The notes beneath the pieces are model-generated. The model was not told where the DNA came from, did no database searches, and saw nothing but the letters and a program-made list of their open reading frames with translations. A program made the translations under genes and the position numbers. 20,888 bases of DNA from the NCBI GenBank assembly GCA_000310025.1, contig FN649742.1, forward strand, positions 2,365,718 through 2,386,605, read 5' to 3'. Of the stretch, positions 1-20,321 are shown piece after piece. Each line of letters starts with the position of its first letter. The first letter of the stretch is position 1. The DNA is from Ectocarpus siliculosus (Eukaryota; Sar; Phaeophyceae; Ectocarpales; Ectocarpaceae).

Positions 1-3000
1 CAAGCATAACCACCCCGAGGCTGAAGACATCCGATCGCTCGTCCAAGCGGCCCGTAGACTGGTACACCGGGTCCATGTACCTAATCACATCATCATCATC
101 ATCATTGTTTTGTTGTCGTCATCGCATCGTGTGTTGGCCCCCAAGTACCAAGCGTCCGGTGACGGTGACAGCAAGAAAAACAGGACAGTGGCAGCAACAC
201 ACGCAGTAGTTGGTAGTTCAACGCAGCACACGGGAGACACTCTCGTACTACGGCATCAATTTCATCGTGCTAGACACGAAAAACGATCGATTTTGACGCA
301 GTAGGGTCACCACATCGATCATGCGGACTGTTGCTCCCCGCGCTGTCTCTTTTCACAAACACCAAAACGTGCCTGCGAGAAAACAACCCACGCCTTGAGG
401 CTCTCTTTCCCACTCCCACCGCCGTAGCCCAACCCACAAAAAACACTAATGGTAACTCTCGTTGTAAAATATCCTTCGCATGTAAATGCACCGCTTGCAC
501 GGGTCCTGTAAGCCCCCATCAAGCCACGCCTCCAGCACATCAAAAACACCCCCGTGGTGGTGGGCCGCGGCATCCATCTCGTACCACACCCGACAACCCC
601 TGCCCTAGCTTGGTACCACGACTCTCGCTTTACAACGTAATCGTCTCCCTCTCTCGTGCGCCCCTCACCCGAACGTCCCCTGAAGCGCGGCATCGTCGTC
701 CTGGGCAGGCCCACCCCCCCTGCCCCCGCGCCCGCCGCCGCCGGCGGGTGGCCTAGGCCGCGATACCTTGGCCTCGCTCTCTCCCACTCGGGAGATGCCG
801 AAGTCCGACAGGCGAGCCTTGAGGTACTCGTCCAGGAGGATGTTTTCCGGCTTGATGTCGCCGTGAATAACCTTGTGTGTGTGTGTGTGTGTGTTTTTTT
901 TTTCAGTGCAGACACCAAAGAAATTTCGAAGAAAAAGTGGGGGTGGCGTACTTTGGTCGGCCTTGAAATGGATGTCCGCCAGGGACTACTTGTATGTTTG
1001 CTTCGTCGACTGCCAAGAGGAACGAGGAATGACACATAACTCCAAAATTCCAAGAGGAACAAGAAATGACGCATGACCCCAGGTGCCAGGGGAATCGATG
1101 CCGAAGTAGCTGCTAATGACACTACTACCCCATGGTAGCAACGGAGCTCTTCGTCGCAGGTGCCATGAGGAAAAGGCCAAATTCCAGCATGCACTTACCT
1201 ACAGATCGGTTCGTTACGAGAGAACAGGCGCATCCTGGGGCTCAACGCTAGCGGCAGCCCCCCCATCTACGGCCATCTGCTTCCCCACGCTCACAAAAAC
1301 AACATTCCCCACTACCCCCGAGCATGGAAACGCCCTTCTACTCGAACCAAAACAAGAGCTGCTGTGCGGCCGCGGCACCCACCTTGGGCTTGTTGGTGGA
1401 GTCGCTGTGCAGGTACTCGAGGCCGTTGCACATGTGAATCGTAGTCCTCACTCGCAGCCGCCAGCCGAGGCGCGACCTCAACGCCGGGTCATCCAGGTGA
1501 TGCCGCAGGCTGGTCGATTGGATAGATCCCGAGGGATGCGGCGGCAGGTTTCACATGCGTACAGGCAGTAGCGATGACGGTTGGTTTCGGGTTAGGCTTT
1601 AGACATACAAGTATATTTTGGGCTTTTCCGACGGCGGCCAGTACGAGGACGAGAGCGATTATGAAACAGAGGGGTTGGGAAGCAGGGGGCGGTAGGCCGA
1701 TCGATGGCGAAGGTGTGGTGTGAGGGCGCACCACCGGTGCCAACCCACGGGCGGCGGGAGCCAGAAGGGGTGGTGCATGCTTGACAGCGAAAAGGAGTGC
1801 GACAAACAGCGGGTGTTCTGTTGGGTTTCGGTTACAGACTCTCCTGAATGGCACCGACGGGTGAAGTGGAGGGGCTCGGTCGCAAAGCTGCGTACGGAGG
1901 GTTGTCGGACAGACGACGGGTGGGTACAGGATGTTCCCCACACGGGGGGGGGGCATCGTCGGCAAACAGCCAAGCGATTCCAGGTTAACCCAACCCACCC
2001 ACCATGTCCTGGGGTCGACACGAACGGCGTTCCCCGAGCGAACCTGTCTCTAACCCACGACACCCAACACCTCCCTCACTGAAGGCCGCACCACACGCAA
2101 AAATCACAAAAAATCACACCGGGCGATTGCATCGGGCGATTGCATCTACGTATCTACCTGTTGTTGGGCATGAGTCGGTAGACCAGGCACGGAGGCTCCA
2201 TGCACACTCCAAGAAGCGGCACGATGTTCTCGTGTCGACACGTGCTCAGCACCTGAAGAACAACAAGGACGCGCACACACCACGCGCACACGGCCGATAG
2301 GACCGCGGCCGTTTCACGCCAGCGCACACAAAAGAGGGCAGTGTCCTGGTAAGCGGGTGGAAATGTTCGCGTTGCGCATGCGCGCACGCGCGATGCAGGG
2401 AGCGCAGAAACTTTGGGGTACAGCAGCAGTAGCCCTAGGGCGGCGAAAAACGACGAGACGGAAACGAGACAGAAAAACACGCAAGAAACAACAGACAGGA
2501 AACGGAGTGCACACATCCCGTGCCTCTGCCTGTCTTGTGTCCGTCTGCACGACCAGGACTTCCCGCTTACCTCCACCTCCCGAAAGAACTGCTCCCGCCC
2601 TTGTAGTCCTGTCTCGTCCAGCTTCTTCACGGCAACGGGAAGGCCCATCATGCTGCCGCGGTAGACCTGCACATACATATCAGCCATCGTGCGGAACATC
2701 GAAGGAATGGAAGAGATCCTTGGTGTGTGATGCCACTCCTCGCGCTGCTGCTGCCGCTGATCCGCCGCTGCAGCTGCGGTGATAAACCATCCGACTGACC
2801 GTAAAGGTCATAGATGCCGTACTCTTCCCCCCCGCCTCTCGAGTACCCGAATGCCACCGTACCACCTCACTCAAGGGAAATCACAAAGTTGCTTCGCCGC
2901 TCTACATGCAAATGACCAAAACCTTGCCCATCTTCCGACACGGCGCTCCATAACGGCACCTCCAGCACCACGCCCTCCCTCCCTCGTCTTCAAACCTTAT

Positions 3001-6000
3001 CCGATAGCCACCGAGTCATCAACTACGCCTGCTACCCAAGGCCCCCAATCTCCTCACCTTTCCAAACCCTCCCTCTCCGATGCAGCGCTTCTGGTCAAAG
3101 CCCCCGCACGCCTCCCGCACCGCCGGCAGCTGGTACAGCCTAAGCGAGGCCGCGGAAGACGACCCGTCCTGCTGCTGCCCCCCCGGCGGCGGCGCCGCCC
3201 CACCCCCGCCTCTAGCCCCACCCCCTCCGCCGTTCCCCTCCGTCGACAGGAAATCCCGCAGCTCCTCCGAACCCCGGTGCTCGCCGCCCGCTCTCGGGGG
3301 GCCGCCGCTGTCGCCGGTCCCGCGGCGGTCTCGGTCCCCGCCGCCGCCGCCGCCACCGCCGCCGCCACCGCCGCCTGAAGAGGACGAGGCGCCGCTAGCC
3401 TGACCCGCTCCGCCGCCGCCGAGGGGGACAGGTTTGGTGCCCGACCGCATGTCCTCGTGGAGACCCAGGGCCGAGTTTAGGAGGTCCATGGCCTTGAGGC
3501 ACGGCTCAAGTCCTTCGGCCTTGCCCTGTGTTTTGTGGAGTTGTTGCACGTGGTGGTGCTGTTGTTAGGGGCGGGACGAGCGCGGAGGGGAAACGATCGT
3601 GTAGTAGGGTGCCTTCCCAACTCTTCCTCGGGGGGGGCGTACTCATTTGTTGCTTGCCGTAGTCATTTGACCATTGACCACGCGTCCCTTTCGAGACGGA
3701 GCACCGTTCCTATACCTACTAGAGACACCACCAACATTTGGGAGCTCTTTACGTTTCTGCCACAAACTCCATAAAAATTTCTTGCACATCTTATCCCCGT
3801 CCTCTAGGGCCTCTTGTGCCCACCATCTATCCCCAATTATCGCGATCGTTTTTTCGCTGTTGTCTAATTTACCAAACTTGTCCATGTCACACCCTCTCTG
3901 TCTCATTTCCTCCTCGAGATCCTCTCTTTCCTTCCTGTACAACTCACACTCCCCAACTATGTGGGGTCTACTCTCCTCCGATTTGCCACATGGACATGTG
4001 TGTCTATCCTCCTCTTCCTCTCTCCTACGGCTGGTATACCTCTTCCTCCGTTCTGGCAAGTCCAGATCGCCTACTCGAAATTGCAATTTTAGCTTTTTCG
4101 CATAGCAACTCTTCCTCGGGGGGGGGGGGGAAATGCTCCCCCACAATGTTACGGCGACGGGTCAGGCGGCCCTCGAGAGCCGATTCGACTAAAAGCAGAC
4201 ATACACATCCCCACCACAAGGACTACACAAACGGGGTCGCTATCCACGCCCACGCGTGAAAAGCGCGGCAGCTACGGCCTTCTCTATGTACTAGCAAATA
4301 GAGTAGGCAATCGCACCTGGTCCGCGAGGCCTTGAATGACACCCCTCAACCGTTCCCGGTGCTCCTGGCACTCTTTCGACAGGACGTCAAAATGGCGGTT
4401 CTTGTTTCATTTGTGAGAAAAATAGCGAAAAGAGGACAAGAGGTGGCCCCGCAGGAGGGAAAAGAGAGAGAGAGAGAGAGAGAGAGAGGATGAGAAATAA
4501 AAATGTCCGCGAGTTTCACGTGAAGGAGTAAGGGACGACGGGAGGAAAGGGGGAAGGAGCAAACAGAAAATTAATCTTCCCCTTCTCTGTAGGTCCCTCG
4601 AGAAAAACAGAGACACTACCAAAGGTGAGAGAGAACTGCGTAGACACACGCGCATTCAAACAGCAACAAGCGTAGCGCATGTACACCTGATTCTGAATTC
4701 AAGTCTATAGCCCCAACAGCGATATCACACCATGTTTTGAAGGGAGGCCTTACCTCGAAAAGTTCCCCCCAAGACCGACACGCCCGAAGGGTTTCCAGCA
4801 GCAGCTCCGAAGATACAGTCGCCGCCCTCACCACGCCGTCCCCCGACGCCGGGCCTCGCTGCATCGCCGACCGGATGTCCCTTATTGCCTCCTGAGATTG
4901 TCCAGGGTCCCCGCCGCGAAGCAACACAGCAGTCCGCAGAGAGCACCACAACGGCTTCAGTCGATCACAAGAGAGTAGGCACACAGCAGTAATGTATAAT
5001 AGTCCGGTAATCTTCTTGGGGTAGTTGCATCCTTCCTCACACAGCCTGAAAACTCGCCTCAACTAATGTGTTACTTTGTGCCTGTAGCTCTTGCGTAGCG
5101 TATCCTTCTTCGCACAGCCAGGAAATTCGCCTCAACAAAGGTGGTGTTCTTTGTGCCTCTGTAGCTCTTGCCTTCTAGTGCATCCTTCCTCACACAGCCA
5201 GAAAAATCGCCCGCACCTGCAGCGCCATTGCTCCCTTCAGTCTCCCCAAGTGCACATACATCACATGACAAAACCCAAAACTGGTGCTGCTACAACTCTC
5301 TCTCCCTTCCCCGCTTCACCTCCGGAACGCTGTGGTGGAACGTGCTTCCCGGGATGTTCCCGTCCGCGTCCGGCTGGTCCACGGGCGACCCCTTCCCCAC
5401 CAGCTCCTCCACGCTGGCGACGTGCCCCCGGAACGCCGCCCAGTGCAGGGGCACCTTCTTCCAAGCATCCGTGCACTCCACGCGCGCGCCCCAGAACATG
5501 AGCTCTCGGAGGACCCCCAGCTGGCCGTTTCCGGCCGCCCAGTGCAACGGGGTGCGGTTGCTGTTCGTTCGACAAGGGAAGAGAGGAGAGGAGGAGTGAG
5601 CGCGGCCTACGTACGCAATCCCTCGATAACACCGCCACCGCCACCGCCACCGCCAACCAACACTACTACTACACGGCCAGGATCCAGCGCTTGTTCCCCA
5701 TCAGTACGCTCTTCTCTCTCTGCGTGTGTACTCGTGGATCGCTGTGCAACGCGCCCATCACGCAACTCCCACCTTCGCAACCAGCCCACCAAGAACGCAA
5801 ATCTGCACCTTTAAAAAAACGGAAACTCACGAAGCGTCCCTGCTGTTGACGTCAGACTCCTGCATCATCAGCAGCCGAACCACGAACACGTGACCTTTAG
5901 CAGCAGCCCAGTGGAGCGGGGTGGCGGAGCTGCGCACACACACACAAAAAAAAAAACAGCGTGTCGGGAGGCGCGGGGGCAGAGGAAAGTTGCGCCGGGA

Positions 6001-7150
6001 AGGGAAAACATGGGGATGAAGGCGCGCATCACCAGCGTAAGTTCTTTTACTGCTGTGTTGGGGTGCTCCGAGCGAGCGGCATCGACCGCGCCAATCGGGC
6101 AGACCAACAGAGAGACAGTCAGCCTTCGCGGGGACAAAAAAAAACAAACGGAACCATCGCTACCACTCCGTGCACCGGTATGATGACGCCGCGACAGCAC
6201 AGCAAGTTCGGTTCTTCTTGAAGACAAAACTGCCGCAGCAGTCCCACCACCATTTGGAGGTTTTCCTGTGATAGTCAGCATCGTTTAGCGCTATCCCTCT
6301 TGCCTACCCTTGACCAATCCTACGAGCACCCCCACGCCCCTACACAACCCCCCGCCAAGCTGAACTTCTCCCATGTAGACCTAAAGTTCAGGGCCCCACC
6401 GCAGCTGTTGGGGTGCTGATTCACGAACACGCATGCCGGGAACTCACTGTTTCCCGTCTCTCAATCGCACGTCCGCTCCGCAAGCCAGCAGGTGTTCGAC
6501 CGTCGGCATGTGCCCCTCGTTCACGGCCCAGTGCAGCAGAGTCGCGTCATACTGGGAGTCGCGAGCATTGGCCTGTGGATCGAGATGGCACCGGAGAGAG
6601 GGCTCCATTTCGTTCCATGCAAAAAACAGCGAAGCACGTCCTGATAATACGCGCGGATTACCATGCTGTCTGTGCGACAAATGTTCAGGAGGAGAGCTTG
6701 GCAACAGTGGGAGGAGAACAAAAAATTGGCAAAAACCAGGGGAGCGGAAGACTTACTGTTGCTCTCCCAATACGATGCAGCAACCGTCGGTCGAACCTTG
6801 TGGATAACTTTTGCTTGATAGGAGGCGTTGGCGAGATATTCGCGATATGTTTCACGCGTGGGCTCTGGACAGCATGTCGATTCTCCCGCGTACATACATA
6901 GCTGTCGCTTCGGAACAATTAATAGCGAATATCCACACTTCAGAGAGGCTGGACTGATTTCCATGGAGATAGATGTACGAACAGGGGGGGGCTGCACTAC
7001 AGAAGGACACGCACAGGGCCTCAACAAGAAACGCAAGAGCCGAACGACGTTTCTGCCCACCTTTCCCGGAACCACGTTGTCCTTGACCTTCTGCCAGTCA
7101 CCCTTGTTGATGGCTTCGAAGACATCCACCCGGCTCCGAAAGAGGTTCAT
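1..7150 (-). CDS. Ankyrin-repeat / RLK-Pelle-like protein kinase, 12 exons seen, 3' end off window
   Basis: Exons in transcript order: 7150-7061, 6572-6448, 5929-5831, 5560-5320, 4891-4754, 4400-4317, 3525-3058, 2666-2571, 2252-2158, 1509-1383, 871-669, 80-1. All have GT-AG borders and join in phase, giving about 615 residues. Residues 8-180 hold about five ankyrin repeats with the core (T)PLHWAA. Residues 186-290 are helix-rich and unrecognised, followed by a Gly/Ser-rich linker (about 290-390). The kinase domain follows: P-loop GEGGFGKV (408-415), VAVK Lys429, helix C Glu445, PNNSL hinge-like segment, EYLH, catalytic HGDIKPEN (Asp526, Lys528, Asn531), DFG 544-546 and GTFGYMDPVY, up to the SDVFSLGVV helix F. 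HGD rather than HRD makes it a non-RD kinase. Motifs suggest Ser/Thr kinase of the TKL/RLK-Pelle (IRAK-like) group; a cytosolic signalling role is inferred. The start ATG has an in-frame TGA six codons upstream. An alternative exon 7 acceptor 36 nt upstream is also in phase. Confidence 0.9.
874..903. repeat. (TG)10 plus T10 microsatellite abutting a 3' splice site
   Basis: A TG dinucleotide run (874-893) followed by ten T (894-903). On the gene strand this reads A-run then CA-repeat, ending 1-2 bases from the acceptor AG of the kinase catalytic-loop exon (exon 11, starting 871). The usual pyrimidine tract is therefore replaced by alternating CA, and repeat-length changes would alter this splice site directly. 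Confidence 0.85.
1013..1077 (+). repeat. Two diverged 28-bp direct repeats in kinase intron 10
   Basis: Copies at 1013-1040 and 1050-1077 start with CCAAGAGGAAC and match at 24 of 28 positions by eye; all four differences are A/G transitions. They lie in the 511-bp intron between kinase exons 10 and 11 and have no coding signal. Confidence 0.7.
2121..2146 (+). repeat. 13-bp unit repeated twice (GGGCGATTGCATC)
   Basis: Perfect tandem copies at 2121-2133 and 2134-2146, inside kinase intron 9 and 11 bases from its 5' splice site (GT at 2157-2156 on the minus strand). Nothing else is recognisable in this intron (1510-2157). Confidence 0.8.
3618..4125. repeat. Direct repeats flanking the retrotransposon fragment (putative 20-bp TSD)
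   Basis: CAACTCTTCCTC followed by 8 G at 3618-3637, and the same followed by 13 G at 4106-4130. The shared part is 20 bp. Only the G-run length differs, as expected for a slippage-prone homopolymer after duplication. Confidence 0.6.
3638..4105 (-). mobile_element. 5'-truncated non-LTR (LINE-like) retrotransposon fragment in kinase intron 6
   Basis: A minus-strand open frame across this block ends in TGA at 3645-3643. It encodes a Lys/Glu-rich tail with a CPCG-x7-H-x4-C cluster, the zinc-knuckle arrangement found C-terminal to reverse transcriptase in many LINE-type proteins, then a basic end. No polymerase domain remains. The block is bracketed by direct copies of CAACTCTTCCTC plus a G run (3618-3637 and 4106-4125), which looks like a target-site duplication. 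It sits in the 791-bp intron between exons 6 and 7, in the same orientation as the host gene. The element family is inferred from the motif and flanking repeats; the fragment has no poly(A) tail that I can see. Confidence 0.6.
4463..4488. repeat. (AG)13 microsatellite
   Basis: Thirteen uninterrupted AG units in kinase intron 5 (4401-4753). On the gene strand this is a CT-rich stretch near the 3' half of a purine/pyrimidine-biased intron. Confidence 0.9.
5027..5212 (+). repeat. About 2.4 copies of a 73-80 bp tandem repeat in kinase intron 4
   Basis: Units start at 5027, 5100 and 5180, each opening with G(C/T)ATCCTTC(C/T)TC, then CACAGCC and a TCGCC block. The first two continue with TTTGTGCCT and GTAGCTCTTGC, and the third stops early. 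They fill much of the 428-bp intron (4892-5319). Minus-strand open frames through them fit neither splice phase nor homology, so I treat the block as non-coding. Confidence 0.75.
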
Positions 7151-9038
7151 CGCAGCCGCTGTGTGTCATCAACCTAAGGGCGACACATAAAACAAAGAAT
7201 AACACGCAGTTGATATTGACGTGTTGCGATTGCGGCCCCTCGGTATTTGCGCACGATTGCACCTTTACGCCTTTGTTGTTCGTCCGTGGGTGTATGAGAG
7301 AGAAAACACTGGTGGTTCCGAGGGCCGCGTGCATCTTCCTGCCTTTCTCTCTGTCTGGTGTTGCCTCGTGTTTCGTCCCGTCTTTGTATTCGCGCGCGCC
7401 AGTCACCTTTTGAGGTTGTGTCTATTTGGCGAATCAACGAAGGTTACATGTGCATACATTGTACACGTCATAGTAGTACATGCAAAACAATGTACTTGTT
7501 TTTTTTTTCCCACTTCCCCGCGTGTGCGATGCGGAGACGGGTTCAGCACTCCCTTCCCTCTTGGGGTGAATATTTTGCAGCTCTATAAGAACATTAGTAT
7601 ACTCCCGAATATTTGTAGAGCTGCAAAATGTTCACCCCCGACAGAATTCCGAACAAAAGCCTACCCACCATGCCAAAATGCAGCTGTTGTATGTAGGTTT
7701 GCGAGGTTACCCACTAAGACTAGGCTAGACCAATGGGGCGCCGGTGCATACCACGGCGTTAGTGTTCATTTGTTCCAACCCATACCGCAAAAGCGTACAG
7801 CAGTCAGCGCTTTCCATTCACCCTTTGGTCAGCGGCGGCGGCGCGCAGCCAGAAGTAACAACCAAGAATGGTCACCGATACGGCGTAAATCGGATAGTTT
7901 AACATCGATGTTGGAGAATGCGAGACGAGTTTCTCCGATTGGGTGAAGAAGGCAGTTTTGGTGGGCACATATCTGCAAATTACAACTGCAACAATTACCA
8001 TTGCACCGGAGCTGTAGCTGTCTGTAAGCGTGTTGTCATCTCTCTTTCGTAGCAACGGACGAGGGGCGAGATATTGAGCTGCGATCCGCCAAGCAAGCGG
8101 GACGCTGGGATACACGAGCGGGAGGTGGTTGTCGTGCAGGGAGAGGACCAACCAGCCCGACATGCCTAGATCTGTGGCTAAACTGCCCGCTTCTTCTGCG
8201 ACGTGCGGGAGCACCAAAAGCGTGTAAGCAAGCAGCTAAAGAAGAGTGTGTAGGGCAGAACAACACAGCAGCAGCAGAAGAAGAGTAACCAGCCCGCATG
8301 AAGACCAAAACTCCCACACACTTCTCCCAACAATCTCGCTGTCCCAAAAAGGCAGACGTAGCTGCATCCAGGCTTCGTGTAATAATCACCATGTTTTTTC
8401 AGGAAGCAGCTGCAGCAGTAGCAGAGAATTCCATGAACGGCACAAAAGGGATGACCTCCGCCCCATGTACAAGAAGACGGTGGTATTTGTACTGATACCG
8501 AACTTCCTCGCCTGTCGGCTTTGGCGTGTGCCGAACAAACCTTCAAACTTGAGGGCTTGCCTACGGACCGCACTGATAGAGCAATGCCTCCCCATACCTT
8601 ACTCGACGTGAGGCTTATCCACCTCCCGAATCTCGGAAGCCTTCCTTTGCGAAGCGCAGGGTCTGGCGGTTGTGTGCGCTGGTTTTCACTACGTCGGTTC
8701 CCCGTACGCCAAGGCGAGGGGGCAGACGAACGAGACACATCACGCCCATGCGGCGACAGATTGCGGAGCCCCACCTCCTTGGTGCGGCGGGTCCTGCTCA
8801 CACACAGCTGCCGCGGCCGCTGTCTGCTCTGCCTACTCTGTGTCTACCACTGCCAGCAACAGACGCTGCTGATCCACTACGCCGGAGTTCCGTGTGCTTT
8901 GTTCTACAGAACACGGGATACAGGTACAAACATCGCATCTCGTTGTAGAGCATTGATATCGAACGCAGCTACGGCGGGGCTGAAGCACACCCACCTACAG
9001 CAGTACTAGGGTACTAGTCTAGGGCTGAGGAGGGAACC
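7151..9038. other. Divergent intergenic region between kinase and NCBP2 genes
   Basis: About 1.9 kb between two divergent start codons, so it should contain both promoters. The strongest structure is the inverted repeat at 7563-7638. A minus-strand open frame at 8217-7804 has two hydrophobic stretches but no recognisable family or supported splice partner. ACAGCAGT occurs at 7797-7804 and at 8997-9004, the latter 35 bases before the NCBP2 ATG. No TATA box is evident near either start. Confidence 0.6.
7563..7638. repeat. 76-bp inverted repeat / hairpin (22 of 23 bp stem)
   Basis: The left arm 7563-7585 (GGGGTGAA...GCAGCTCTA) is the reverse complement of the right arm 7616-7638 apart from one T/C difference, which remains a wobble pair in RNA. 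Four more pairs including G-U (7586-7589 with 7612-7615) extend the stem to about 27 bp and leave a loop of about 22 nt. Flanks show no obvious duplication. It could be a miniature transposon, a structured or precursor small RNA, or a cruciform-forming site. Confidence 0.8.
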
Positions 9039-11292
9039 ATGACCGAGATGCTTGACTTCGGGTGGTCCGAGCGGCCCTACTGGGACCGCAAGAATTGGTC
9101 CTCGCTGGAGGCTTACAAGGAGGCTCTCAAGAAGTCCAGCACGCTCTACGTAGGGAACCTGTCCTTCTATACCCAGGAGTCTCAAATCTACGCCCTGTTC
9201 GATCAGGTGAGATGGAGGGCTTGATTGTCTTGGCAGCAGGGGTGCATTCCCCGTTCCCTACTACAAATGAACTATGCATACGAGCGTGCATGGTTGCTGA
9301 GAGGCGAATGTCCAGCGCAACGCATGTTTTTAATGAATTCGCAGACACAGAGGCCTGAAAGGCTAAGCAGTTGAAAAGCGCACAGGCCTCGGCGCCCTGG
9401 CGAAGTAAACGGGAGAGCCGGCTGTAGACGAGACAGCAATAGCATACAACCAGGACGATACATACCCGGTTGGGTCGTCTAGCTAGTAGAAGTGGAGGAT
9501 AGGGGCCAGAGGGGCAGACGACAGAATCCAATGATGGGAGAAAAAAAAGTACTATATATACATATATATATCCATTCCAATCTCTGATGCACCGCTGTCG
9601 GTATCTTGACGTGACGTGTTGATCTCAAGTCACGAAGAAGTAAACGGGAGAGCCGGCCCAGAACGAGACAGCAATACAACCAGGACGATACATTTCCATT
9701 CCGATCTCTGATGCACCGCCGTGGGTATCTTGACGTGTCGTGTTGATCCAAAACACGAAGACGTGGTCTTGTTTCGGTTGCTCACCCAGAGTAACGACAG
9801 CAGTTGTGCTTGAGCCTAATGACCCTGCGAGAGCAGCAGCATCGCATGCATACTCTACGTCGGCTGCGCTGGCGGAAGTGTCACATGTCACACAGCTAAT
9901 AATTTCTTTGCTTGACACTTGTTGACACAGCTAATTTCTTTTCTCGCCGCTCTCGACAGGTTGGAGCGGTTCGGAGAGTGATCATGGGTCTCGACCGCGT
10001 GAAGAAGTCCCCGTGCGGTTTCTGCTTCGTCGAGTGAGTCTTGTATGTTCAGATTTGTAAGCAACTGCTGCGCGGGGTCCGGAAATGGAAATCCCACCGT
10101 GTTTCTTGTTATGTAGACGGCATGGAGGGATGGATGAACATATGTAGTCAAGATGCACTCTGTTGTTCGTAGAACCACCGCTCTCGTCTTGGACGTCCAC
10201 AACAACCATACTGGTCAGGCCGGTTGCGGTAAATGAGGGTGTTATCTTGCTTCTCCGTATGTACTACCTCATGCGGTTGCCTTTTTTCCCTGCAGAATCT
10301 GTGCGAAAGGTCGGTGGATCCTCCTCGCTTCAACGAAACAGGCTACCATTTTACCCGATGGGTTCCGTCTCATGCCCGCGAGAGGGAAGGAACAGCAGGT
10401 TACTCTGAGACAGATGCAGCGTTTAGTATCCCTCCCCCCAAATCCTCGTGGCGCCTTACCCACCCGTATCCGCTTGTACCCAATTCACTTCTCGCTGCTT
10501 CAAGGTACACGAACCATTCTGATACGCTGATGGCGATTACCTGCCTCGACGGTACGGCGCTCGACGAGCGTATCATCAAAGTGGGAATCGACCCAGGGTT
10601 TAAGCAGGGCCGGCAGTATGGGCGCGGCATGTCGGGAGGGCAGGTGAGTGACAACCCCCTCGAAGCGTTGGTCAAATTGGTCGAGTTTTTCCGCCCGGAA
10701 TGATGGGAATGGTCCTGTTGTGTGGTTGAATGTTGGAAGAGTGACCTGTTCGGCTTCCTGTTTTCGTTTGTGCGCCATTTTGGGTGTTCAGTTCCAGCTG
10801 GATGACACTACCAAGGTATCGCTGGTTTTCCTGCGGTAGGACTACGAAGTAGCCCACATTCACCGCACTGCTGTGCCAACCATGTAGTAACTGTGTCAAG
10901 AACAGCCGATATTTTGCGCGAGCCACCTATCAAATGGCTTCCATTCATAGATATGCATTGCACGCCCTCGGCTGTTCTGCTACTGGGTGAGTGTTCGCAC
11001 ATGGCCGCCCATGTCGTTGACAACGCAGACACCCGTATCCCCCCCTCAATATCCCAAATCAAATGGAAAAACCCCGGAGCAGGTGAGAGACGAAGCGCGC
11101 GCCACGAACGACCCAGCACGAGGAGGCATGGGCGGCCTAGCCCTCGCCGAGATGAACGGGCAGCTTGCACCTCAGGGAGGAGGAGGAGGAGGAGACTACT
11201 ACGGCCACGGCGGCGGTGGAGACTACTATGGCGGGGGCGGGCGCGCGAATAAGCGGCCACGCGTGGACTGGGATGCGCGGGATCGGCGGTGA
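9039..11292 (+). CDS. NCBP2: Nuclear cap-binding protein subunit 2 (CBP20), 4 exons
   Basis: Exons 9039-9206, 9960-10033, 10505-10643 and 11083-11292 join in phase through GT-AG introns to give 196 residues (human CBP20 is 156). The protein carries one RRM: RNP2 LYVGNL (36-41), RNP1 CGFCFVEY (75-82), and the family signature [11 protein letters not shown]...GGQVRDE. With CBP80 it forms the nuclear cap-binding complex, which binds the m7G cap of Pol II transcripts and acts in splicing, export and first-round translation. Tyr14 and Tyr37 align with the cap-stacking Tyr20 and Tyr43 of human CBP20; Phe77, Phe79, Arg117 and Arg121 are also kept. The human Arg-Thr-Asp-Trp-Asp stretch reads Lys-Val-Gly-Ile-Asp here (106-110). 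The C-terminus is lengthened by a Gly-rich tail with two DYYG blocks and a basic KRPR end. Confidence 0.97.
9402..9748 (+). repeat. Duplicated A-B unit in NCBP2 intron 1, one copy carrying a 108-bp insert
   Basis: Block A occurs at 9402-9462 and 9637-9694 (starts GAAGTAAACGGGAGAGCCGG, ends GGACGATACAT). Block B occurs at 9571-9624 and 9695-9748 (TCCATTCC...TTGATC). In the second unit A and B are adjacent; in the first they are separated by about 108 bp ending in a TA-rich stretch (about 9551-9571). Either sequence inserted into unit 1 or was deleted from unit 2. All lies in the 753-bp intron 1. Confidence 0.75.
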
Positions 11293-12445
11293 AGGGCCGT
11301 CCCACCAGCAGCACCTTGCTTCATTGTAGACATCTGTTCACTTTTAGTTTTCTGGTTGTGTTTTTGGTCTAGGTTATGTAGCGGTTCTGTTTTTTTGCGG
11401 CGGAGGGTACTCGCTTGTTCTTGACCGCGCCAAGCTTTTGCGATTGGCTCACGGTTCAACAGGTTAGGTTATATCTTGCTTTTCAGGAGGGTGGCACCTT
11501 GTGTCATGCAACTCCGAGTTGAATCGCAGGTGGAAAGTTGTGTGGAACTACACTGCTGTAGTGCCGCGTCGCCAAATGTATCTCGTGTGAAGTTTTTTAC
11601 GGGACGTCGGTCGTGATTTGTCGTGTGCGCTCGGTCCACGCAATAGGAGGTCGAAGGTTGTTCGGTTGGTGCCTCGCAACCTTCTGATGTTTGGGGCTTG
11701 GGTTCGAATCTTTGCGCAGTCACGGGAACTGGGAATTTTCGTTTTTTCCCAAAAAATTGGGTCGCAGTCACGGGAACTGGGAGTCTTCGTTTTTTTCCAA
11801 AAAATTGGGTATGCCCAAAAAATGTGGAAGGCGAATACTTCGTTTGTACGCAACAAATTCGATATCACGGCCGAACGAGGGAAAGGGACGGCTAAATCCC
11901 TCCCGCTTTTAGAATTAAGGCAAGTACCGGAGAAAGAAAGCGAAAGTACCTTATGTGGACTTCCTTATTTGTGAGCCCGGCTGAATCGTCCAGAACCTAC
12001 AATATACATACCCAAAGAAAGGTGGAGAGACTGACTTCCAGAATAAGATGGGACGAAACACTGCCAAGAACGATAGTGTACAAAACATCTGCGTAAGCTG
12101 CGTAAGAGCTCCCGAAAACCGTGACACAAGCTCTGTTTTTCTGCTCGATGTCGCAAATCCTCGCGAAAGGGATGCTTCGGTACGAGTGACGTGCCCGTCT
12201 CTCTCTCTCTCTGCTCTCCCCCCACCCCTCTGGTCCCTCCTTCTACATGGGCGCTACAGACCCCAGTACATGGCCTATCGATCAGGACGCGACGGACACC
12301 ACACGCTCGACACCTCTCTCGCGGGCTACAAGCACATTGTGCTTAATCCGACTGTTGCGTGTACCAATCGATCCTGCTTGCTTGTCTCTGCCGAGAATTC
12401 TTCACGGGCTATTTACCTATCCAGACACCGCTGCTGGGCGTATCA
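11293..12445. other. Convergent intergenic region between NCBP2 and ARL2 3' ends
   Basis: About 1.15 kb receiving transcripts from both sides, so it should hold both 3' UTRs and polyadenylation sites. I see no canonical AATAAA close to either stop codon. It contains the 48-bp tandem repeat at 11715-11810, a tRNA B-box-like sequence at 11701-11710, one ACTGCTGT at 11552-11559, and a short CT-repeat near 12200-12213. No convincing gene is present. Confidence 0.6.
11715..11810 (+). repeat. 48-bp tandem duplication containing CCCAA-A-TTGGG dyads
   Basis: Units 11715-11762 and 11763-11810 both start CGCAGTCACGGGAACTGGGA and end in CCAAAAAATTGGGT; they differ at only a few bases. Each includes a small dyad (CCCAA...TTGGG, partly degenerate in unit 2). 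A further partial TATGCCCAAAAAA follows. Confidence 0.85.
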
Positions 12446-14608
12446 TCATGACATCATGAATATCCGGGCTCCGATATCGCTGACCATCCAATCCACCCCT
12501 TGGGCAAGCCCTTCCCCGGTGACCGCGCTGCAGGCGACGATGCTCCAGTGCCGATTGGCGAACTGCTTGGATTCGAGGCCAAGCACTTGAGCAATCTCCG
12601 CGGCCCCGAGTGCCCCTACAAGGTCTTGCTTGTTAGCGAACACTAACAACGATGCTCCGGCCAATTTCTGCGTGGTTGTGTGTTCACGAGAAGAGATCGC
12701 AGTCAGCGAAAGACGGCATTCACGCCTCCATGAGATACTGTACCGGGGCAAAACATGCATACGTCTGGTGAACGAGCATCGAAGATTCTTGGCGATTTTC
12801 AGTGACATAGAACCCTCTTGAGCAGAAAAAGTCAAGCGTCGGGACTGATCTTATTTCATGTATTGAGTCTTTTGTTGTTTTTGTCACCAGATGGCGGGGG
12901 AGGACCTTTCACAAGAAGTTGGTATCATAAACCCTCCGCAATAGAAAGAGCCAAAGCCCAGGTAGGGCACTTGGTACTTTCACCGGGGTGGTGGCACAGC
13001 AGTAGTTTACGCTTGGTTCCTCCGCTTAAGCGAGAATTTGTATGCTTGTGTGCACCCGTCGAGTGTCCAACTTCCTACCAAGCACCGCCTACATCACGAT
13101 GCTCACCTCCTGTCCGAGCAAGTCGTGCAGCTCCCGCTTGCAGTCCTGCAATCGGCCTCGGTCTGCGCTATCCACAACCCAAATCAGCCCATCGGTCTAC
13201 CATGAACGAGCCGAAAGCAGTTGGCACGGATTTAGGGCGGGAACGCTCTCAAGGGTGAGGAAAACAGTTTAGATGCTTAGATAGGGGTATTCCGCCTCCG
13301 GCGGTGCTACAGCGCAGTGCTTCCCCATAAAAAGGGGTTATAGCAGGCTGGTCCTAGATGCCGTCGTAGGTTTGACTACGAAAGTTGGGTTGAGGGCCTC
13401 ATCGGGTTCAAAAGACACAACACAAGACGACATACGGCGTTCTGTACGACAGGCGCGGCTCGGCAGTGGACTTCGCACAACCGACGGGATTGAAACCATA
13501 ACCTTCGCAACATCTAGCAACGGCAGTGTGTTCCCCGGTGCATCAGGTTTACGTCGCACGTATGCATATTTCAACAAGAATCGCATCGTCAACGTATCTC
13601 GGTATGGTACAGACAGTGCCCCCCCACCCCCACAGAATTGCATCTATATCGGTATTCTGTGCCCCCCCCCATGAGGTACACCTGCTCGAAGTAATTTCTC
13701 CAGTATGACCGGATGGTCTGCTGGCCTCCCACATCCCAGACGTTAAGCTGGTAGCCCTTGTACTCCATGGTTTTTATGTTGAAGCCGAGGGTGGGCTCGA
13801 TGGCGTTGATGTCGTCCCCGTTGAACTTCTTGACGATGGTTGTCTTGCCGGCGTTGTCCAACCCCCTGTAGCCGGAAGACAGAACCAAGCTTCTGAGGCT
13901 CTTTATCGAAGAACCAATAGCACCAGCAAATAGAGATCTTCGCATGGGATAGAGCTCGGAGAGTGGTCTGGCAACGACAGCTCTTCACCCACCACTCCAG
14001 GCTCGGCAACTACGGCAGGTAGAGTTACTCATCATGTGCGACACAGCAAAAACGAGCTCCAGCTACATAAATTCAACTACAAACCCATCCTCTCGCGCAG
14101 TTCAGCTTCGCTACTTAGAAGCACTGATAGCTAGAGCACCCATTTGCAACAACAAAAGTTTCAGCGGTATACGCGACGTGTGTGCCCGCCAGGGAGCGGG
14201 TCATGTGATATGTGGTGATTCGAAGAAACATCTGTAGGCTACTACAGCAAGTACACCCCGCGATGGTCGGCTAGCATATCCAAACCATGCTTTTGCGGGG
14301 GGGGCGGGGGGCGGGTTGTGTTCTCGAGAATCCACACCGCGCGGGAGAAACATGTGTAACTTGGGGCTCTGAGGTAGACAGCTACATATAGTATCACCAC
14401 CTGCTGTGCGGGAGTGTAAGTCTAGGCAAAGCCTTTAGGTGGGAAAGACCTGCCAAGAGAGAAACGCTCAGAAATTCAAACCGCAATATCATCAACACAT
14501 CTCGACGGCTTGTGTTCACAAAGCATTATCTGGTCGAACTCACAAGATTAGAAGGCGAACCTCCTTCTCCTTTTGCTTCACTTTTTTAAGTATGCTGAGA
14601 AGCCCCAT
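12446..14608 (-). CDS. ARL2: ADP-ribosylation factor-like GTPase ARL2, 4 exons
   Basis: Exons 14608-14544, 13865-13682, 13196-13107 and 12667-12446 join in phase (GT-AG) to give 186 residues (human ARL2 is 184). The short first exon encodes the N-terminal helix starting MGLLSILKK, which identifies ARL2 within the Arf/Arl group. G motifs: P-loop GLDNAGKT (23-30), switch I Thr47, WDVGGQ (65-70, Gln70), NKQD (125-128), CSAVTG (159-164). ARL2 is a small GTPase that works with tubulin cofactor D in tubulin heterodimer assembly and with PDE6-delta, UNC119 and BART-type effectors; Gly2 is present, but ARL2 proteins are generally not myristoylated. No key residue is missing. It is divergent from the UPF0489 gene (375 bp between start codons) and convergent with NCBP2. 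Confidence 0.97.
14297..14315 (+). other. G-rich tract with quadruplex potential in ARL2 intron 1
   Basis: Runs of 8, 6 and 3 G separated by single C. The longest run can be split, so four G-tracts are available on the + strand (the non-transcribed orientation for ARL2 is +, so nascent RNA would be C-rich). No function is implied. Confidence 0.6.
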
Positions 14609-14983
14609 GCTTGAAGGCTAGCCACTGCCGGTGGAGGAAGGAGGTGGATTACAGATGGCAATTGTCGATGCCATCGCCGGCCGTCGATGGTTTAGGGGGA
14701 AAACGGGGTTGGATGGGATGTTGGTTCTGCCAGGGAGATTTTACGACAGTCCCGTGTGTGTGTGTGCTCGCCGCTTTTCACGCTGTCCTGGTCTTTGCTG
14801 TCCAGCCTGGCCTGTGACTCCTCTACTGCCTCTCTTCCTACACTCCTACCCTCTGTCCCTTCCACTGTCTAACCAGCGATCCAGGAGCCATCGTGGTTCG
14901 GTTAGAACTGGCGCCATCTGACGAATGAGCTCAAAGCCTCTCGGAGCGCAACGTACTACTGCTGTACCTGCTGTACACTACTG
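14609..14983. promoter_or_regulatory. Candidate bidirectional promoter between ARL2 and the UPF0489 gene
   Basis: Only 375 bp separate the two divergent start codons. It includes a CT-rich tract (about 14815-14875) on the UPF0489 side and an ACTGCTGT at 14958-14965, followed at once by a CTGCTGTAC echo, 18 bases before the UPF0489 ATG. No TATA box is evident. Promoter assignment is inferred from gene spacing. Confidence 0.5.
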
Positions 14984-17750
14984 ATGGAAAGAACACGAGT
15001 TGCTGGGAGAAAACGTGCGAGACCAACGCCTTCTCTGCGATGCTACATCGTAGACGACCACTGCGATGCCTTAAGCAAAATACACAGAGCTATCCGAAAC
15101 GGCGCGTTGCCCTTCACAGGCCTTTCGGCTGTCCATTTCGATGCCCACCCGGACTTGATGGTGACACCCGACATGCCCGCAGAGACTTGCTTTCGGCCCC
15201 ACGAACTCTACGACACCCTGGCCCAGACAGAGGGAGGTATCGCAGAGTGGATCCTACCGTTGGTATACCAGGTAAGGCATCCATGGCTGCTGCTGTGGGC
15301 GTCCATCGTGTGTTGCGAGACTCCTGGCCATCTACCACGTTTCCTCCACGGTCGCTCTCGACTCTCGACTCAACCCGTTGTACGCGCCCCAACCAAGCTG
15401 CATGTCCAACACCTACTTGTAATCTTGGTAACTTCTAAGTCAGATGGACCCTAACCCTTGTGTGAATGGAGGAAGACGGGCCGAGATTGGGGGTCGTGTG
15501 CTATCGAACTGAAAAAATACGCGTGGAAAAAGTTGGTTGTAGGAGTCCACCACGCGATACATGCAGCGCGCCACCACGTTCACCTCTCGTATTTCGGATC
15601 ACCTAATGAAGCGCAAGATACGACGGGACCACGCGGAGTTCCTGTTCTCCCGCAGTCTACCGATTGCAATCTCCATGGAAATATGCCCAGTATGCATCCA
15701 CCATATTATGCTACGAGTAGTTCTAACAACGCGGACCTCCCAAACATTCTCTCGTACACCTGACTTCTAGGGTCACCTTTCCACGCTGTGGTGGGTGAGA
15801 CCGCGTTGGGCCAGGCAGTTCACTGACGGGGATCATCGGTAAGTCATACTGCAAGCACTGCTGTATCTGCATGAACCGATGTGCCACTTCTCCATGTATT
15901 GCAAAGTAGGCGCTCGTTGATCTCTCCGCTGTTTATTTGCCTTACAATTGCGGTTACTACCTTGTGCGGGTGGAGCTCTCCATTTCATGATTTGCCTAGA
16001 TTAGGTACTACTCTGTCGCATTGTTCACTCAGCCACACGAAGAAAACAGGCAACATGGAAGGAGCCCATTCAATACAAGCACAGAAACCACGGTTAAACA
16101 TTTCGACCGAATACCCGCCAGCGACCAGTCACCGAGCTGGATGCTAACGTCACCGTTTCTGCTGCCGTGCGTGGTTCAGTTTTTGCGTCGGCCAGGTGAA
16201 GGCCACAGGGAAGCTTCGAGTATCCTCGACTGCACCCTATTTCGTCGACGACAGACTCTACTGCCGCGAGGAGGACATGCACGAATGCAAACCCCTGCAT
16301 CTGTGCGTCAGCCTCGTCCCCGACAACCTGCCGTCTCCAGCGGAGTGTCTCACTGGGGCCGAGCTGCAGGTGGATTCGGTTCGCCCGCAGAACCGCGTGG
16401 GCGCCCAAGCAGATGCCAGCGATGGAGCGAAGTCGCCAACCGTCGCGCATGGAAACGGCGACGGGACGGAGAAAACGGAGGGTGCGCGTGTGGCAAAAGA
16501 AACGGCTTGTTCGACGAGATTCACGATCTCAACGGCACCACAGCAGTCGGAGAAATCTCAGGGCGGCTGCAGCCGACCAACGCCGTGGGTACTGGACATC
16601 TGCTTGGTAGGCGTCCACATTTACTGGCGTACATGTAGCTCCAAGAAAAAAACGTACAGGCGTAGTACCTGCCTACTCCGGAGTTTTTTTTTGTCGAGGA
16701 TGCCACGCTTGTGATACGTTGTGTGCATAACGAAAGACGGGCCCACCACCGACTGAAGATCCAAACGCTTGTGATACGCTGTGTGTGCGTGCATTAACTG
16801 AAGACCGATCCACACCACCGACTCCACTTTCGACACGTGCCCTGCAGGACTACTTCACCACCGAGAACCCCTTCATTTTGGAGCTTGAGGACCACCTCGG
16901 AAAGAGGGACGCCGCCGTGGTTCGTGATTTTTACGGAAGGCCTCGATTCCGCGGGGCCGCCACCCCGCTCCCGCACGAGACGCAGCTGGAACACGAGCAC
17001 ATCTTCAAGACGGAGGTCGACCGACTCCTTGGAGCCGCCGGCGAGGAGAGTGCCAACGGGGCCGAACAACCTGCTGCGGACACGAAGGGAGAAGCCGAAC
17101 GCGCGATCGTCGCGGGTGGTACAGCATCGAAGGACCTTGCGGAGGGGTCTCCTGGTGCTGCTCGGAGTGGACGATTCCCTGGAGAGGTGGTCGTTGACGG
17201 CTCGACGCCTGTTTCTGAGGAAGCCGACACGAGGGAGGAGGCGGACGGTGGTGGAGGTGGCAGTGGCGCGAGCCAAGAGGTTCACGGATTGCGGCGGCTG
17301 ACGGAGCTGTTCGATCCGGACGGCGAAGATCGCCTGCTCGCCGGGAAGTTCGCCTCCGTCGTTGGCCGCATCGGGCGGGAAGGACGGCAAAAAGTCGCGT
17401 GGGCGGACCACTGCGCGTGCTTGCCGCGGCACCTGGCGACCCGGGAAGAGGTAAAAGGTGCGGTGCGGTCGGTGGAGGCGTTCCTGCGGTCGTTGCTCGA
17501 GGGCGGCACTGCCACAACCAGCAGCAGCAGCAGCAGCAGCGCGAATTGGAGCGGGAGGCCGGGCGTCATCACGGTGGCGCGCTCGGAGGAGGACGGCTAT
17601 GTGCCGGCAAGCATGGTCGCGTTTGTCGAGCAGGAGGTCCTGGCGATGCTCTTTCGCCTGTACGGTGGAGATGGGGCGGAGGGAGTAGCCGGGCGTGGTG
17701 GCGGGCTGGAAGTGTGTTACGAAGATGGGTTGGAGCCCGCGAAGGGTTGA
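14984..17750 (+). CDS. UPF0489 / C5orf22-like protein, 4 exons
   Basis: Exons 14984-15271, 15771-15838, 16180-16606 and 16848-17750 join in phase with GT-AG borders to give 561 residues (human C5orf22 is about 440). Family landmarks in order: YIVDDH (21-26), VHFDAHPDLM (50-59), a WILP...VYQ-GHLS segment, WWVRPRWARQF (103-113), HR-FCVG (118-123), LRVSSTAPYF, PWVLDICLDYFTTENPF (254 on), and a C-terminal VARSEEDGYVP segment. The cellular function of UPF0489 proteins is not established. The HFDAHPD and DxxLD-type motifs resemble metal-binding motifs of the arginase/deacetylase fold (my inference). Extra length comes from two low-complexity insertions, about residues 170-250 and 315-400, plus a Ser run from AGC repeats. 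The motif normally read as DIDLD has Cys260 in the middle position. Confidence 0.92.
17519..17541 (+). repeat. (AGC)n trinucleotide repeat inside the UPF0489 coding sequence
   Basis: About seven AGC units encode a Ser run in the last exon, in a loop between the domain core and the C-terminal VARSEEDGY block. In-frame length changes would be tolerated at the reading-frame level. Confidence 0.85.
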
Positions 17751-18895
17751 ATGGTCGGTTGGAGTACACGTTGGTTGTTGGTTCGGGTCTGGGTGGGAGC
17801 AGTGTGGGTAGCGATTACTGTCTCTCCTAACTTGGCGAGACGCGAACTTTCCATGTTACGCCGTCCCACGGGCAAATGGTGGTTGGGGACAAGGCATGTG
17901 GTTGCCCCGTTTCATCTCTTTGGAGCAACATCGATCTTGAGTGATCTTGTACATTGTCATCCTCGTTTGCGGCTTGACAGCCATGTGTTGAAGTTTTGGG
18001 GTGCTTGCGCTGCTGCTGTTTCATTCCTCGAAAACACTGTTTCCCTCTTTGTTTGTGGCATCCGTGGTGGCATGGATACCGCGACAAGTGTCGCTGTGTA
18101 TGCAGCGACTCCTGCAACGTCACACGCACTTCATGTGTGCCAAACAGTCTGTTCATCCAATCAATGCGATGGACAACTACATAATATGCACCCTGCAAGC
18201 CTCTCTGCTTTACATTAATCCACGCAACAATCATCATTCGGTTGCCTACTGATGCTATATGCATATGTGTAGGAACAGAGTAGCCAGCCGGCAACATCCA
18301 CCCGACGAAAAAACACAACAACACATCGTGGTAGCAGATATCAATTCTTGCTCACCATGGTTGGGGGTGCAACTTACCCAACCCTTCATTGTCGCGAAAC
18401 GAAGAGAACACCTGCCAATGCAAGGTTCTTGAAGCAAAAATTGAGTCTGCAAGCCCAATACAAGCCGTTCAAGATCTTGTGTTGTATTGTACATGTAGTG
18501 TGGGGGATCTTTTACACGCCCTGTCATTTCGTCATTTTTTTCTTCTCGCAGCCATGTGTAGAGAATGTAAATGGCGATGAGATGTGGGAGAATACACCAT
18601 TCAGCCAATCTTTCGTTAGTATGCTCGCTGTTTGTGCTCGCAGATGCAATATACACCGGTCTGCAGAGAGGGCAGAAAGCTAGCTGAGAGGGCAGAAAGC
18701 TAAAATAGCTGTGTGTGTTTTACCGGTCATTTTTTATTGAACGGGTTACCCAGCGATTGCACCCCTTGGTTGTATTCTGCGGAGCCCCACAATGCGAGCT
18801 GCTTGCTCAACAGGCACAGCAAGCACCACACCAGCAGACACAGGAGACAAGAGAGACACAGTGTGTGAGACCAGCTCTGCCTGAGAGAGAGAGGC
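17751..18895. other. Intergenic region, no gene seen
   Basis: 1.1 kb between the UPF0489 stop and the next ATG, with T-rich and mixed composition and open frames that are short and unlike any family. It should hold the UPF0489 3' UTR and the promoter of the downstream gene. The only distinct structure is a 17-bp repeat with 20-bp period at 18666-18702. Confidence 0.5.
18666..18702 (+). repeat. 17-bp direct repeat, 20-bp period
   Basis: GAGAGGGCAGAAAGCTA occurs perfectly at 18666-18682 and 18686-18702, separated by GCT, about 200 bases before the ATG at 18896. A third partial AAGCTA-like echo (AAAATAGCT) follows. Confidence 0.85.
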
Positions 18896-19114
18896 ATGGC
18901 GGCCACCAAAGGCGAAGGAAAGCAGTCGCTAAAGGCGAGAAGTAATGGAAGCACTGCTGCAACGGCGCAGGAAACTGCCGGCCTGTGGAGGCTCTTCCCT
19001 CTAGTTGCGGTAGCAATGGGGATCGTTGTGGGCATCCTGTGGGAGCCTTCCACGCCAGCCACGGGCGAGACAGCGGGAGAGGCCACGGCTGACTCTGCGA
19101 AAACGAACGGTGCG
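18896..19114 (+). CDS. First exon of a predicted type II membrane protein, family unknown
   Basis: ATG at 18896 opens a 73-codon segment: a basic, Ser/Ala/Thr-rich N-terminus (1-29), one hydrophobic helix LFPLVAVAMGIVVGILW (33-49), then an Ala/Thr/Glu-rich stalk. The arrangement (short basic cytosolic tail, single anchor, flexible stem) is that of type II Golgi/ER enzymes such as glycosyl- or sulfotransferases; that role is inference only. The exon probably ends at GCG|GTAATC (19114, phase 0) or at a GT five bases earlier (19109, phase 1). The phase-1 donor would join in frame to the exon at 20322. Reading on to the stop at 19276 gives a composition like intron sequence. Confidence 0.5.
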
Positions 19115-20321
19115 GTAATCGTCTTTGTTTTTCACATGTTTTTTTGCCAGCAGCACAATATGCATCCATACCTGTCTGCGGAACAACCTAGCTATGCGTA
19201 TGATACAGCATCTCCATCCGCGCTAACGTCGCAAATGCAGCCGCGCTCGCAGCTATACTCGTCATTTAGAGACTAAATACTGCTGGTCAGCGGGGATGTT
19301 TAGCGAGGTGGTGTCGGGGATGTGAAGGAATTGCAACAGCACGTGAGATTTGATGCTCAAATTCGAGGCAATTGGCGGTAAAGCGATTTATAGCCGTTAC
19401 ACTGCTGTCGGTTCACCACACAGCAGAAAACAGTAGAGTTGCGCGGAAGCCGTTGACGGCGCATCATCGCGTGTTGTAGTTGGCAGCGGAAAGTCCCCCT
19501 GCCACCCAGTACCACACACGCACACCGAGCGGTTGCACGCATAGCAGCGCAGCCCAATGCACGTCACGGGTGAGGCGTGTAGCTCCTGCCTAGATTGAAC
19601 AATGGGCATCGTGTTCTCAGCCGCCCAACTCGACTCAACGGAGAATAGAGCCAGCTTGCACCCACAGCAGTGCAGTAGTTATTCGATGGCCGTGCGGAGC
19701 TTTTCTAACAGGCATGACCCACCCGCCGGCTAAGGTCATGTCTTATGGTAGCAACAGGCAATGAGGCGTGTGATTGCTCGCGTTTTTGGTCTCAGGTCTT
19801 CACGTCGGGAGTTGCTGCACCAGGTGCTCCTGTTCGTTGGGATGAGCGTCAGCGTCCTGTGTGTGTTGAGAGGAAGACCGGGTGTCACTGCTGTGTCACT
19901 GAACCTTGCCACTCTGTAGGGACTCGAAAACATGGAAAGCATCCCTTTGTGAGTAGCCACGCCTTAGACGGGCAGGCTCCCTGTCGTAGTATATTCTTCC
20001 GAAGAAATGGCTTGCTGTTGACAAACACCATGTCTAAAAGGGACGTGTGTTGCATCCAGCACAGTCGGAATACGCTTTCCCTGAAGTAGCATCCGACCCA
20101 TTCGACGCCGCAGGCACATACATGAACCTCGATATATTTAGCAACAGCAGCGCGGAACAACCCCAAAGATATTCCGCGTGTATGGCATGCTGTCCACCCC
20201 GACTCACAAACGCCCCCCCAAAACCAGCCCTTCGTTTTTCCCTCATCCTTTCCGTTTCTTCTTGACAACCCAACCTCTCGACCCCCCCGTCTTTCCTTCG
20301 TTCTATGGCACGGCAAAACAG
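19115..20321 (+). other. Probable intron(s) of the membrane-protein gene
   Basis: 1.2 kb between the two coding-like exons. It contains three copies of the ACAGCAGT/ACTGCTGT 8-mer (19401, 19664, 19887). An open frame at about 19797-19920 following a possible acceptor might be an extra exon, but nothing in it matches a family I know. Otherwise no feature is seen. Confidence 0.4.

Follow-up and report, generated by a model that had tools for sequence, protein, structure and literature searches.

A staggered cut at a palindromic target, followed by gap filling, gives a three-base duplication in transposition biochemistry. The excision of PIF/Harbinger elements is often precise, and small duplications are left by trapped topoisomerase II. 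Cyanobacterial HIP1 is a highly iterated exact word of bacterial genomes and a perfect palindrome. When an exact word is over-represented in non-coding sequence, it is usually taken for a regulatory motif.

NuwaI transposons duplicate the target 5'-CWG-3' and are reported from 16 animal genomes only, according to the passages that deal with this family (PMC4482050). The parts of the Ectocarpus transposon survey that deal with Harbinger and EnSpm give ANT and TNA as Harbinger targets and count 6,366 EnSpm copies, and a CWG target is not mentioned in them (PMC12477816). The sections covered of PMC12595863 hold nothing that bears on a CWG target either.

The word described here, ACAGCAGT with its complement ACTGCTGT, was not found in Ectocarpus literature among the matches listed, and ACTGCTGT as a whole word alongside 'motif' gave no literature match. 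None of four core strings occurs in the main text of a study of P. infestans promoter motifs (PMC3597505), and in the sections covered of a paper on Ectocarpus histone marks the word 'motif' does not occur (PMC7784034). These searches did not bring up the motif or target exhaustion; they cannot say whether either has been published, and absence from print is not claimed.

Gene content of the window

The analysis was based on one window, which is the whole stretch of 20,888 nt (21 kb). It contains about 55% G+C and eukaryotic, intron-rich genes. In gene structure and composition it resembles a brown alga such as Ectocarpus. By their Pfam matches, the genes include a minus-strand kinase with ankyrin repeats, an RRM gene, an Arf-family gene and a UPF0489 gene, and a further gene lies at the right end. 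At a finer level, the RRM gene reads as NCBP2 and the Arf-family gene reads as ARL2. Exon limits were set by eye, which gave an exon share of 24%. No relative of the NCBP2 and ARL2 proteins was found among viral_contigs. In genome_contigs, ARL2 matched one distant Arf (44% identity), whose contig is catalogued under a Trichodesmium MAG. That contig has 0 copies of the 8-mer in 11.8 kb at 35% G+C, which amounts to no test.

Several other elements were seen in the window. The kinase gene carries a 73-base unit in about 2.4 tandem copies (5027-5211). A minus-strand ORF of 172 residues (3643-4161) shows a CPCG..H..C pattern, which we take to be like a LINE-type retrotransposon end; it had no Pfam match at E 0.01 and no relatives in viral_contigs or genome_contigs. 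The fold-back element at 7563-7638, whose 26-base arms are 92% complementary and lie 24 bases apart, looks like a small inverted-repeat transposon, and by eye its flanks are not CWG. At 11701-11810, a tRNA B-box-like GGTTCGAATC stands directly ahead of a 48-base tandem repeat. This is possibly a SINE relic, and neither ARAGORN nor Rfam gave a match there.

Occurrence and placement of the 8-mer

An earlier note on this DNA had counted 15 copies of the 8-mer, and every coordinate was found to be exact. Read on the + strand, eight of them are ACAGCAGT, at 4926..4933, 4983..4990, 7797..7804, 8997..9004, 9797..9804, 12996..13003, 16540..16547 and 19664..19671. The other seven are ACTGCTGT, with the word on the - strand, at 6049..6056, 10867..10874, 11552..11559, 14958..14965, 15857..15864, 19401..19408 and 19887..19894. 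The claimed excess over a random expectation of about 0.6 was reproduced with dinucleotide shuffling, which expects 0.88 copies and reached a maximum of 4 in 100 shuffles. A trinucleotide-preserving background, applied within the window, expects 0.75 copies, and the expectations of order-3 and order-4 models are 1.6 and 3.2, respectively. Ranked by P-value among the observed 8-mers, the word stands second at order 4 and fifth at both order 2 and order 3, behind nothing but homopolymer, dinucleotide or CCG repeats. Within the window it thus passes the background comparison that the earlier note had asked for, and the excess is real and unusual. Lesser words over-represented at order 2 were noted around TATGCAT (ATATGCAT, 5 against 0.40 expected), together with CGATTGCA (6 against 0.70 expected).

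The tendency of the copies to be flanked by C or T on the left and A or G on the right holds as well, with Y at the left in 13 of the 15 copies and R at the right in 11. Both flanks fit in the copies at 4983 (C..A), 6049, 8997, 10867, 11552, 12996, 14958, 15857, 19664 and 19887. The copies at 4926 (in a kinase-gene intron by eye) and 16540 are flanked by C..C, that at 7797 by T..C, and that at 19401 fits at one flank of two. The copy at 9797 is flanked by G..T, which is neither Y nor R. Beyond the adjoining base the flanks hold little information (at most 0.6 bit).

The placement of the copies relative to genes was less informative than had been proposed. It is correct that only one copy in 15 is exonic, namely that at 16540, which lies in frame in a UPF0489 exon and encodes Gln-Gln. 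Against an exon share of 24% this is a weak bias (P 0.09). Singles and doublets together number 2 in exons, where 4.7 are expected; the 8-mer looks non-exonic because exons hold few ACAGT words. The first 4.9 kb, described as free of the word, do lack an exact copy (P 0.018, uncorrected), and imperfect forms are present there at 1561 and 2420. The copies are scattered rather than tandem, as had been stated, and their spacing fits random placement (P 0.11). Two of these few copies are close to candidate ATGs, that at 8997 lying 34 bases before the one of the NCBP2-like gene and that at 14958 lying 18 bases before the one of UPF0489. The distances given earlier were correct to within one base, and this proximity is a post hoc observation. 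Both orientations are present. Since the copies at 9797 and 10867 are in opposite orientations within introns of one gene, as are those at 19401 and 19664, the suggestion of an RNA-processing signal is disfavoured. Positional and spacing signals were either not significant or post hoc. An RNA family or tRNA origin was rejected, with none found in the window by ARAGORN and Rfam.

A proposed doubled target

The word ACAGCAGT can be parsed as A-CAG-CAG-T. When one CAG is removed and the flanks are included, YACWGTR remains, which is a seven-base palindrome except for its centre. The words with mixed W, ACTGCAGT and ACAGCTGT, occur 0 times in the window. This structure, together with the absence of the mixed words, pointed to duplication of a target. 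Three predictions of this idea were tested on the same window on which the hypothesis had been formed. The same two zero counts make a symmetric site for a dimer, with any base at the centre, unlikely; they leave a fixed asymmetric word unaffected.

The first prediction is a lack of the single target. ACAGT/ACTGT was found 20 times against about 37 expected. Intact YACWGTR was found twice, at 12737..12741 on the - strand and at 18858..18862 on the + strand, whereas the order-2 model expects 10.3 (P <= 0.003, 400 runs) and the order-3 model 10.5, with so low a count reached in 0 of 200 runs of the latter. Taken by itself, the ACAGT deficit ranks ninth among 512 5-mers. An order-4 model expects 5.1 YACWGTR (P 0.10), and this model is fitted to the 5-mer itself. 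The deficit of single targets is supported; alone it is not decisive.

The second prediction concerns the flanks. Y..R flanks were found in 10 of 15 doublets and in 2 of 20 single ACWGT words (Fisher P 0.0009). The tendency of the doublets themselves had already been noticed, and the contrast between doublets and singles is new.

According to the third prediction, imperfect doublets should exist. Those with 1-4 extra bases, the same W and Y..R flanks number 5 against 0.70 expected, a count that was reached in 0 of 400 order-2 runs and 0 of 200 order-3 runs. All are on the + strand, at 1561..1569 and 13609..13617 (1 extra base each), 13309..13318 (2 extra bases), 2420..2430 (3 extra bases) and 12256..12267 (4 extra bases). 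A CAG triplet repeat could account for the site at 2420, and 4 are left without it. The controls for gapped doublets, with mixed W and with R..Y flanks, gave 0 each. The result is blurred by same-W Y..R pairs at gaps of 9-12, which number 3 against 0.70 expected (P 0.04); two of them arise because exact copies overlap. If any centre base is allowed at gaps of 1-4 with Y..R flanks, mixed-centre pairs are as frequent as same-centre pairs (6 each), the mixed combinations being threefold. Shortened footprints, in which bases are lost from the doublet, showed no clear excess in the forms tried.

As a control set, 64 palindromic 7-mer classes were used (32 cores, with Y..R or R..Y flanks). YACWGTR was first among the 64 in the deficit of singles (z -2.5), in doublets (10) and in gapped doublets (5). 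The class YACSGTR behaved as a weaker version, with 4 singles against 10.4 expected, 2 doublets and 1 gapped doublet. Its doublets, ACCGCCGT, lie at 418..425 and 9715..9722, both on the + strand and both with Y..R flanks, so that 15 of the 17 exact doublets carry CWG and 2 carry CCG. With any centre base, Y..R singles number 6 against 20.4 expected, and Y..R doublets at gaps of 0-4 number 18 against 1.9 (the maximum of 300 runs was 6). The site at 9715 lies inside a repeat whose other copy (9564-9624) has the site doubled too, with one base changed, and hence no empty site is available there. This part of the first NCBP2-like intron (9402-9748) consists of imperfect duplicated blocks (D4, D6 and D15), which include the 9715 site.

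Balance of intact and doubled sites

When one CAG was deleted from each of the 15 copies, ACAGT rose to 35 against 36.7 expected and YACWGTR rose to 12. Outside exons, singles and exact doublets together number 33 against 31.7 expected. Preferred sites, counted as intact plus scarred and including the imperfect ones, number 17, which is above the 10.3 expected. The books of intact and scarred sites are thus in imperfect balance. One-mismatch neighbours of the core showed no excess (7 against about 11, summed), which means that the scars would be young, constantly renewed or protected; protection would favour a functional site. The density in 20.9 kb is 15 exact doublets, or 22 once imperfect and C/G-centred forms are added, and if it held genome-wide it would correspond to a very large number of events.

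Origin of the doubled sites

The doublets are best read as three-base target-site-duplication scars at YACWGTR, most likely left where a DNA transposon that targets CWG was excised. This is a tentative attribution, to which we give slightly less than even weight. The cutting enzyme would recognise the near-palindrome YACWGTR and cut it with a three-base stagger around CWG. A cut-and-paste DNA transposon would then insert, so that CWG is duplicated on either side. After the element has left and the ends have been joined, what stays behind would be YACWG-CWGTR, in most cases exact and occasionally enlarged by 1-4 bases. Such a scar would no longer contain the target, and therefore, with or without an element, the preferred targets would run out while scars build up. 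The earlier suggestion of a footprint of a dispersed short repeat comes close to this in the word footprint, and no repeat common to the copies was found.

Filled sites were searched for as CWG-flanked inverted ends (9 of 12 bases, 40-6000 apart). No pair (0) was obtained for A-CAG/CAG-T, and A-CTG/CTG-T gave one weak pair, at 6053-6404, which is not convincing. The protein scan covered 30 sequences, of which 29 came from the 210 listed ORFs; no transposase family was detected in these, and a DDE transposase with a Myb/SANT gene between inverted ends was not found among them.

A duplication that needs no element fits the sequence nearly as well. A nuclease, a trapped topoisomerase or an abortive transposase would cut YACWGTR, and fill-in and joining would double the CWG. 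It would account for the predominance of exact forms (15 exact A-CAG..CAG-T sites against 6 with 1-4 extra bases) and agrees with the window having no convincing filled element. On the other hand, a palindromic target of seven bases with CWG duplication is more in the manner of a transposase, and we know of no such sequence-specific enzyme in these genomes; we consider this route distinctly unlikely. A functional DNA element is less so, though still unlikely. In that case YACAGCAGTR would be an exact site of 8-10 bases, bound by an abundant protein of chromosomes or promoters and maintained by selection outside coding sequence. The exactness of the word, with one-mismatch core variants not in excess, its presence in both orientations, the two copies near candidate start codons and the non-exonic position of 14 of the 15 copies are all in line with it. 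On the other side, exons are poor in ACAGT words anyway (4.7 expected, 1 seen), the spacing is not fixed and the ATG proximity is post hoc. The YACWGTR deficit, the contrasting flanks and the imperfect doublets are all unpredicted by a functional site. The cis element proposed in the earlier note stays a rival at the DNA level, and these three features fall outside what it predicts.

Composition was also considered: CAG/CTG doublets and triplet repeats might be over-represented in general, with A/T flanks arising by chance. CAGCAG is indeed in excess, at 64 against 15.4 expected, and deleting one CAG per copy still leaves 49 where 14.5 are expected; since the excess persists without the word, triplet repeats contribute separately. 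The expectation for the 8-mer climbs to 7.2 at order 5 and 8.9 at order 6, and these high-order models already include its own 6- and 7-mers, so that the word itself is contained in them. The repeat series speaks against composition: G(CAG)nC declines like a repeat (15, 5 and 3 at two, three and four units), whereas A(CAG)nT is commonest with two units (15, against 1 with three), and a by-product of CAG microsatellites is unlikely for the same reason. Moreover, among 288 isolated triplet doublets, the runner-up to ACAGCAGT occurs 3 times (P 0.003). Composition as the whole explanation is accordingly improbable. Several local repeats are present in the window, and the copies might be the remains of one dispersed repeat family carrying the word. 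No family of at least 3 copies and at least 18 bases covers them, and the match D12 (15847-15870) is two-copy and chance-like. The flanks past the adjoining base are not shared, and such a family was rejected as having almost no chance of being the source.

A further claim may be considered, namely that one cutting enzyme rewrote most of its seven-base targets genome-wide into scars, as a self-limiting ratchet. We regard this as possible but rather doubtful. If true, it would provide very many scars that can be counted and dated, whether or not an element was inserted. Should the word prove to be a scar, searches for motifs would go astray in genomes of this kind, past cutting events without a surviving element would become countable and datable, and a mobile element or nuclease would be seen to exhaust its preferred targets.

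Comparison with known systems

The doublets resemble the excision footprints of cut-and-paste elements, which consist of adjacent target duplications, mostly exact and some with extra bases, at a preferred palindromic target. They differ in that scars here exceed the intact preferred targets (10 exact and 15 in total, against 2) and in that no convincing source element was seen in the window. With NuwaI transposons, as the passages on this family describe them (PHIS superfamily, relatives of PIF/Harbinger), the CWG target duplication is shared. The family is reported from animals only, and in the window no transposase family was detected among the 30 proteins scanned and no convincing inverted ends were found. 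As with HIP1, the word is an exact 8-mer that is greatly over-represented and shows little degeneracy. Here, unlike in HIP1, the target is doubled and its single form is missing, which points to duplication.
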